From: Emcibacter sp.
GTDB lineage: Bacteria > Pseudomonadota > Alphaproteobacteria > Sphingomonadales > Emcibacteraceae
Reading direction: 5' to 3'
Length of the DNA stretch: 44,815 nucleotides
Assembly (NCBI GenBank): GCA_016764855.1
Contig: JAESRB010000006.1
Coordinates: 1-44,815, forward strand
The notes below the pieces were generated by a model. The model ran no database searches. It saw nothing but the letters and a program-made list of their open reading frames with translations, and was not told the origin of the DNA. A program made the position numbers and the translations under genes. This document shows, one piece after another, positions 18,037-19,761 of this stretch (within the stretch, counting starts at the first letter, position 1; each line of letters begins with the position of its first letter).

Positions 18037-18194
18037 TTTTTTGACTCCAGCCTATCTTTTTCTCATATGAAATTCTTAAATTTAAGTCCGATTGTCCCGT
18101 TTTGTTATGGAAAGGTCAAGTTGTGTTTTTCACGAGCTACTTATAAAAATACAACTATAGGGAGAATGAAAGGTATATTTTTCTATAATTACTC

Positions 18195-18222
18195 TTGATT
18201 ACTACTTATTTATGCCTATTAT
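18195..18222 (+). promoter_or_regulatory. Promoter of the lysis cassette
   Basis: TTGATT (18195-18200), 16-bp spacer, TATTAT (18217-18222), a 5/6 match to the -10 consensus. It ends 46 bp before the start of the first cassette gene. The -10 is embedded in a perfect palindrome (18213-18227). Confidence 0.5.
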
Positions 18223-18227
18223 AGGCA
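18213..18227. promoter_or_regulatory. Perfect 15-bp palindrome over the -10 (candidate operator)
   Basis: TGCCTATTATAGGCA: 7-bp arms around a single central T, covering the putative -10 of the lysis-cassette promoter. This position is typical of a repressor site that blocks RNA polymerase. No regulator gene lies next to it. Confidence 0.5.
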
Positions 18228-18268
18228 CTCAGATTCGACACTATAGTATCATTTTAGGGAGTATAAAT

Positions 18269-18892
18269 ATGTTTGATCAGCCAAATGAGATATGCGTACC
18301 GGAAGTTAGTAACGATGGTGAAAAACGGGTTCCAGGGCGAGGGAGTTCTTTTAAAAAGATCCGTAAATTGCGAAAAAAGATTCGTCTTGAACGGCAGCTT
18401 GGGGAAAGAAAAGGATTAGGCCATAAAAAACTGACTCTTTCCGGAATGGAAAAAGATTCTAGCGGCCCAACAAAGCAAACCGTCGCCAAATTAACCCCGG
18501 ACCCCCTCATATTGTTCAGAAAGAAAAATATCCTGAATGACGAGCAAATATGGGCATTTGAGCAGATTAAACGGGCCGTGCAAATTATTACCGATGGCAC
18601 ACAGATCCGGACGTCCCGCTTTAATGCTGTGGTGGTGCAGAGCAGCAGATCAGCGCCACAATATGAGAGTGAGTATGAGGTCAGGGTTAAAGAGCACTAT
18701 ACAAATTGGATAGACCGTATGACTTATGAGCGTCAGAAGGCCGGACCGGTGCTGGATATCATCATTGATGAAATGTCTTTAACGGCTGTTGACCGTAAAT
18801 GGGGTAAGCGAAAAGGTTGGGCTCGTGATCTTCTACGGACCTCATTAGACCTTTATGGTGTTTTTTCTTCAGCAAACGATAGGTATAAATAG
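18269..18892 (+). CDS. Unknown protein, first gene of the lysis cassette
   Basis: 207 aa. The N-terminal third is strongly basic and probably disordered (FKKIRKLRKKIRLERQLGER). The C-terminal two thirds are helical, with YTNWIDRMTYERQKAGPVLD, IIDEMSLTAVDRKWGKRKGW and ARDLLRTSLDLYG. That last part reminds me of the DUF6456-type domain of alphaproteobacterial phage/GTA-associated regulators, a resemblance from memory only. A nucleic-acid-binding or antiterminator-like role is possible. The start at 18269 is supported by TAGGGAG seven bases upstream; an in-frame ATG at 18212 would fall inside the operator-like palindrome and is rejected. The stop lies 4 bp before the endolysin start, so they are co-transcribed. 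Confidence 0.75.
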   Translation: MFDQPNEICVPEVSNDGEKRVPGRGSSFKKIRKLRKKIRLERQLGERKGLGHKKLTLSGMEKDSSGPTKQTVAKLTPDPLILFRKKNILNDEQIWAFEQIKRAVQIITDGTQIRTSRFNAVVVQSSRSAPQYESEYEVRVKEHYTNWIDRMTYERQKAGPVLDIIIDEMSLTAVDRKWGKRKGWARDLLRTSLDLYGVFSSANDRYK

Positions 18893-18896
18893 GAAT

Positions 18897-19349
18897 ATGG
18901 AACATCCGCTATTAACAGCACATTTTAAATTAACGGAATTGACCCGCAGCAGCATTGCTCTGCGTCACGGTATAGGCAATGACCCAGGCCCGGAAGAGGT
19001 TGTGAATCTGACCCGGCTAGCACAGCATATATTGGAACCGGTCCGACAGAATTTCGCGCTCGCCTTCAGTCCGTCCAGTGGTTTCCGGTCCCATCAGGTG
19101 AATAAGCTGGCCGGATCGAATGGTAACTCACAGCATGTTACCGGCCATGCGGTGGATTTTGAAATCCCGACGATTCCTAATCGGATCTTAGCCCATTGGA
19201 TCAAGGATAATCTTGTTTTCGATCAGCTGATTCTGGAATTTCACCAGGAAGAGGACTCCAGCAGCGGCTGGATACATTGTTCCTATAATCAAAATAAGAA
19301 TAGAAAGGCGTGTTTGATCTTTAACGGCACGGAATACAGGGTATTTTAA
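18897..19349 (+). CDS. M15-family peptidase, phage/GTA-type endolysin
   Basis: 150 aa D-Ala-D-Ala carboxypeptidase-like zinc peptidase (M15_3 type) that would cut peptidoglycan cross-links. The zinc motif SQHVTGHAVDFE supplies His and Asp ligands. The second His is in the GWIHCSY segment, and the FDQLILEFH segment precedes it, as in phage enzymes. There is no signal peptide, so export would depend on the holin encoded next. The frame is open upstream to 18855 inside the preceding gene, but MEHPLLTAHFKLTELTRS is the normal N-terminus for the family. The stop is one base before the holin start. Confidence 0.9.
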   Translation: MEHPLLTAHFKLTELTRSSIALRHGIGNDPGPEEVVNLTRLAQHILEPVRQNFALAFSPSSGFRSHQVNKLAGSNGNSQHVTGHAVDFEIPTIPNRILAHWIKDNLVFDQLILEFHQEEDSSSGWIHCSYNQNKNRKACLIFNGTEYRVF

Positions 19350-19350
19350 C

Positions 19351-19761
19351 ATGGGATTTTTATCAAAAATATTCGGCGGGCCAGCCATTGACGCGGTATC
19401 TGCGGTGGGCAATGTGGTTGATCAGCTTTTTACCAGTGACGAAGAACGGGCACAGGCCGCCCTTCTGATGGCAAAGCTTCGGCAGAAGCCACAACTTTTA
19501 CAGGCGGAAATTAATCGGGTGGAGGCCGCGCACCGTTCTTTGTTTGTGGCGGGTTGGCGGCCTTTCATTGGGTGGGTTTGTGGCGTAGGTTTTCTGTGGG
19601 CGTTCTTGCTACACCCTTTGTTTGAATGGGTTGTGGTTTTGCAGGGGTTGGATATTGTAGCCCCCAAAATCGTCACGGATAATATGATGGAGCTGGTTTT
19701 GGCCTTGTTGGGGCTTGGTACCTTGCGCAGCGTTGAAAAAATATCCGGCCGCAGCAAATAA
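19351..19761 (+). CDS. GTA-type 3TM holin
   Basis: 136 aa. An N-terminal amphipathic helix (SDEERAQAALLMAKLRQKPQ) leads to EINRVEAAHRSLFVAGWRPF and then IGWVCGVGFLWAFLLHPLFEW. This is the signature of the three-transmembrane holin family seen in alphaproteobacterial gene-transfer agents and phages (Pfam GTA_holin_3TM). Hydrophobic segments lie at about residues 68-92, 95-105 (weak) and 112-128. It would form the membrane lesion that releases the preceding M15 endolysin. The start follows the endolysin stop by one base, which indicates coupling. No capsid, tail or terminase genes are nearby. Confidence 0.88.
   Translation: MGFLSKIFGGPAIDAVSAVGNVVDQLFTSDEERAQAALLMAKLRQKPQLLQAEINRVEAAHRSLFVAGWRPFIGWVCGVGFLWAFLLHPLFEWVVVLQGLDIVAPKIVTDNMMELVLALLGLGTLRSVEKISGRSK

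Follow-up and report, generated by a model that had tools for sequence, protein, structure and literature searches.

Why should a marine Emcibacter-type bacterium keep a phage-like lysis operon with no structural genes of a gene transfer agent (GTA) near it? The question is raised by the window, that is, the whole stretch of 44,815 nucleotides analysed here, which is one contig (C19) of a fragmented assembly of 3.1 Mb in 289 contigs, 78% complete. A first-pass annotation had offered two answers, the lysis module of a GTA or a lone domesticated prophage remnant. Our comparisons, made with other Emcibacter and Emcibacteraceae metagenome-assembled genomes, favour the first answer and make the second much less likely.

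Organization of the cassette

The cassette comprises three genes on the forward strand. The first, P0001 (18269..18892), encodes a basic protein of 207 aa that is a putative GTA/lysis regulator, remotely similar to DUF6456 (GafZ). It is followed by an M15 endolysin without apparent signal peptide (18897..19349; PF08291, Peptidase_M15_3, 6e-13; PHROG endolysin, 2e-30) and by a GTA-type holin (19351..19761; PF11351, GTA_holin_3TM, 5e-19; PHROG holin, 1e-32). The intergenic gaps are 4 bp between P0001 and the endolysin and 1 bp between the endolysin and the holin, and the flanking genes encode an AI-2E transporter and an AsmA/DUF748-like protein. The start of P0001 is the ATG after AGGGAG; an alternative ATG at 18212 is unlikely, since it is located at the -10. 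Upstream lies a sigma-70-like promoter, TTGATT-N16-TATTAT (18195-18222), with a predicted -35 at 18195-18200 and a predicted -10 at 18217-18222, contained in the forward-strand element CTTGATTACTACTTATTTATGCCTATTATAGG (18194..18225). An inverted repeat without strand, CCTAT-T-ATAGG (18215..18225), is the putative operator shared with the promoter of GTA gp1.

The tight coupling, the identities of endolysin and holin, the flanks and the separate promoter were all described correctly in the first-pass annotation. Its "unknown basic protein" stands in so far as P0001 has no family match in Pfam, PHROGs or NCBIfam, and has to be amended in that P0001 is a conserved member of a wider family, which is also represented in prophage-like contigs and in further families of this order.

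Conservation of the cassette

Of the 15 other genomes of the genus, 14 contain P0001, which also occurs in three further genera of the family. The three cassette genes remain together in relatives, and the AI-2E and AsmA-like neighbours are kept in the genus and in G018; in G016 and G017 the neighbourhood is partly altered, and the endolysin and holin are both present by tblastn. The reading frames are open in 19 loci, apart from a single stop in G004 P0001 and from contigs that end inside the operon. The G004 stop (L038:5744-6370) is a premature TAG near residue 27, for which a sequencing error or a later start is possible. Regarding the endolysin, the motifs SxHxxGxAxD and WxH are kept in all relatives wherever covered, and the holin is 76-91% identical in all relatives except G018 (64%). 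In comparisons with close relatives, in which synonymous sites approach saturation, the holin has a pN/pS of about 0.1, the endolysin of about 0.27 and P0001 of about 0.4. A holin accompanied by an endolysin with intact motifs is what a GTA lysis module requires, and both are present.

These data bear on the reading that the cassette has no selected role, being a passenger or a recently inserted phage fragment. The phage-type gene content and the premature stop in G004 would suit it; it is contradicted by the same gene order and open frames across the genus and three further genera, by the invariant catalytic residues and by the low pN/pS of holin and endolysin, and we consider it very improbable. 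Because the cassette is intact over this whole range, it is neither a variable insertion confined to one strain nor a set of genes whose frames are broken in relatives. Judged from its sequence conservation, it is an old operon under selection and no recent prophage scrap.

A GTA cluster in the host genome

The capsid of the G011 cluster, used as query, found contig C67 of the host genome at 73% identity. This contig carries gp1 to gp12 in RcGTA order, with products that include terminase, portal, protease, HK97 capsid, connector and tail tube, and C28 carries gp12 to gp15; the matches are clear for terminase, portal, HK97 capsid, connector, tail tube and baseplate hub. Host gp1-gp12 are 48-77% identical to the G011 cluster, the contig break falls inside gp12 and gp15 is incomplete. 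C67 and C28 thus make up the collinear gp1-gp15 head-tail cluster by which an RcGTA-type agent is recognized. The earlier statement that GTA structural genes are missing holds for the vicinity of the cassette and is amended for the genome, where head-tail genes lie on other contigs.

The GTA_TIM domain (PF13547), expected in gp15, gave no match in the host genome or in 100 relatives, and a Caulobacter control was positive; members of this order may lack the domain or have a diverged form of it, and the host gp15 is incomplete. DUF2460, which is single-copy in nearly all members of the genus, and the capsid were therefore taken as GTA markers. Among 32 genomes of the family, cassette and GTA occur together in 17, both are missing in 13 and there is one genome with each alone, counts that are uncorrected for phylogeny. 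Genus g5 has neither the capsid nor the cassette-type P0001 in any of its 13 genomes examined. G018 has the cassette and the operator and no RcGTA-like capsid; its P0001 has a long N-terminal extension (L032:4340-7050), and a distant prophage-type capsid lies at C4:525216.

Several other genes were observed in these loci or elsewhere. A LamG-domain gene lies between gp5 and gp6 of the host GTA cluster (L154:7111-8667), with a similar open reading frame (ORF) in G003, and LamG-domain genes also occur in prophage-like contigs with P0001 paralogues (L024:3221-5053, L025:2274-3986). Inside the GTA cluster, between gp13 and gp14, a conserved ORF of 230-252 aa with no known family is encoded on the opposite strand (minus; L077:2473-3231, L078:16237-16929, L081:16159-16884). 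The host genome also has a prophage-type contig (C272, L026:494-4723) with a large terminase, a GH108 endolysin and a second GTA_holin_3TM holin, the latter two forming a separate phage lysis pair.

A promoter element common to the cassette and the GTA

When the cassette promoters were aligned, one block, CTTGnTTTnTTCTTATTTATnCCTATnATAGG, was kept between genera though the surrounding DNA was not. All 18 relatives examined, which include three other genera, keep it upstream of P0001. In the window it corresponds to 18194-18225, which is the strongest match to its position weight matrix (PWM) by a wide margin, and no chance match of such quality is expected. The second-ranked match in the window, ATAGGTATAAATAGG (18879..18893, forward strand), is a tentative partial copy over the P0001 stop codon and the endolysin ribosome-binding site (RBS); it is variably kept within the genus and missing in other genera, and could be explained by coding and RBS constraints.

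The PWM was built from cassette promoters only and used to scan six GTA loci of relatives, 19.5 kb each. In all six the best match fell within 320 bp upstream of gp1, and the summed score was reached by none of 2000 column-permuted PWMs, with the same result when G004 was left out. In G004 the reverse complement of the block is found upstream of gp1 with zero mismatches; the GTA site of G011 has a low score (5.2) and is not countable as a site alone. At the host gp1 promoter the arms of the cassette repeat recur 9 nt before TTGACA, separated by 2 nt (CCTATTGATAGG), and it is because of this spacer that the PWM ranks the site only second (score 6.7). The half-site arrangement ATAGG-N9-TTGACA is found in six of seven GTA promoters; that of G016 is without a clear inverted repeat and that of G014 has only half. 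The position of the repeat CCTAT-N1/2-ATAGG differs between the two promoters, since it lies over the -10 in the cassette and just upstream of the -35 at gp1.

In 267 kb from 15 loci there are 11 perfect copies of CCTAT-N1/2-ATAGG, all within the two promoters. The whole 3.1-Mb host genome has only three, namely the cassette, the GTA promoter (C67:1341) and C120:8604. The chance that three random sites would cover both promoters is about 6e-8, an after-the-fact figure: the motif was found by inspecting these promoters, so that single-site probabilities are post hoc and the permutation and whole-genome counts are fairer. The third host copy (C120:8604, L182:3605) stands at the start of a short HTH-like ORF and is probably due to chance, because none of the relatives' extra sites shares its neighbourhood. 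Other perfect copies, read in five genomes, have no common gene neighbourhood and look like background.

The rare element common to both promoters suggests that the cassette serves GTA release under a control that it has in common with particle production, and strongly supports, at the level of sequence, co-regulation of the two loci. The alternative of a domesticated prophage remnant, serving a regulated lysis unrelated to the GTA (for example programmed lysis or vesicle release), could draw on the retention of the cassette in G018 despite its lack of an RcGTA-like capsid, and on the prophage-like contigs of the host, where distant P0001 members (about 30% identical) adjoin replication genes of DnaB or DnaD type. 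The operator that cassette and GTA promoter have in common and the joint occurrence of cassette and GTA speak against this alternative, which is unlikely. Together with the RcGTA-type cluster present in the genome, the shared element argues for the GTA option of the first-pass annotation. We therefore regard the cassette as most probably the release (lysis) module of the host's own RcGTA-type GTA, encoded at a separate locus and switched together with the particle genes, and give this reading a probability of roughly 85%.

The nature of P0001

DUF6456 is the domain of GafA and GafZ, GTA regulators of the R. capsulatus and Caulobacter systems compared below. P0001 does not match PF20057 (DUF6456), nothing exceeds the cut-off in family f1, and the domain is missing from all 31 other family genomes examined; a weak match on host contig C192 proved to be an ECF-type sigma factor. 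DUF6456 is present in most sister families, often just upstream of gp1, and its loci there show no clear CCTAT clusters. Aligned by hhalign with DUF6456 as a single template, P0001 gave P=2e-4 and a probability of 45%, collinear helices being the criterion, and a score of 30.6 vs a maximum of 20.5 among 100 column shuffles; an earlier, smaller profile comparison had given P=0.003. The AlphaFold model from 13 sequences has a pLDDT of 48 and is unusable for fold search. Viral contigs and phage records yielded no member of the P0001 family.

A P0001-like gene and a gene for an HTH-S24 (cI/RogA-like) repressor are arranged divergently in four other families of the order (L139:1450-2733, L040:5241-7140, L142:628-2374, L143:2136-3567), and in three of these four loci a stand-alone gp8-type tail completion gene follows. 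The divergent regions are rich in CCTAT half-sites, with 11 in 935 bp vs 1.8 expected.

Overall, P0001 looks like a DNA-binding regulator of a previously undescribed kind. That it regulates the GTA is favoured by a small balance, the genomic context making this likely and the homology pointing the same way weakly. Alternatively, the shared operator could be the site of an S24 (cI/RogA-like) repressor that keeps the GTA cluster and the cassette off, with P0001 as a downstream factor and not the binder. The divergent S24 genes with their half-sites, the overlap of the cassette repeat with the -10 and the repression of gafYZ by RogA in Caulobacter (PMC9632790) all fit such a repressor, whereas the repeat at the GTA promoter is upstream of the -35, a usual position for an activator, and no relative of the S24 subfamily was found in about 40% (about 1.25 Mb) of the complete G017 genome. 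We give the repressor somewhat less than an even chance.

A model of coordinated release

In the release-module reading, one regulator would act at both promoters, so that in the few producing cells the structural genes and the lysis operon would be switched on together. The holin would then permeabilise the inner membrane, the cytoplasmic M15 endolysin would reach the peptidoglycan and the particles would be released. With odds slightly on its side, this regulator may be P0001 itself, acting as a GafA/GafZ-type activator or anti-terminator whose operon would tie lysis to autoregulation; the main alternative, or an extra layer, would be an S24 (RogA/cI-like) repressor that binds the same element. 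A bolder and distinctly tentative proposal is that P0001 founds a family of GTA master regulators, distinct at family level from DUF6456/GafA, which took the place of GafA in Emcibacteraceae or diverged from it there. As the first gene of the lysis operon, it would link its own synthesis, particle production and host death in one autoregulated switch through the common CCTAT-N-ATAGG operator.

Comparison with known systems

In lambda-type phages, the late regulator gene Q lies directly upstream of the lysis genes. The cassette resembles this arrangement, with a putative regulator before the lysis genes, and differs in that it is stand-alone, with the structural genes at another locus. Our literature search found no paper on such a system in Emcibacteraceae, and both the joining of a regulator with lysis genes and the regulator family appear to be new.

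Coordination of particle assembly with lysis of the producing cell differs between the two studied GTA models. Caulobacter lacks a holin and an endolysin and relies on LypABC for lysis (PMC13236601); its GTA promoter is the target of GafY and of GafZ, the latter acting via a palindrome located between -10 and -35 (PMC11150451). Caulobacter crescentus GafY/GafZ/RogA is comparable to the arrangement proposed for Emcibacter in having a sigma-like HTH anti-terminator at a promoter palindrome and an S24-type repressor upstream (PMC11150451, PMC9632790), whereas the sequence and position of the palindrome differ and a holin and an endolysin are present here.

The closer parallel is R. capsulatus, where, as the first-pass annotation had stated, the endolysin and holin genes lie apart from the GTA cluster (PMC8601537), and where GafA binds the promoters of the GTA and of the lysis genes as well as that of its own gene (PMC6363796). 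The pair rcc00555 (endolysin) and rcc00556 (holin), under GafA, is alike in its location off the head-tail cluster and probably in a promoter control common with the GTA (PMC3423380, PMC8601537, PMC6363796), a likeness drawn from the literature. Unlike R. capsulatus, the operon described here begins with a putative regulator gene, and DUF6456 (GafA) is undetectable in Emcibacteraceae. A candidate regulator can be named where the usual one is missing, and the motif is directly testable. Sequence alone ties a distant lysis operon to the GTA cluster through a common operator, and GTA accessory loci might also be predicted from promoters instead of homology. By analogy, the Emcibacter system would work like the R. 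capsulatus design, with the regulator and the lysis genes brought together in one operon.
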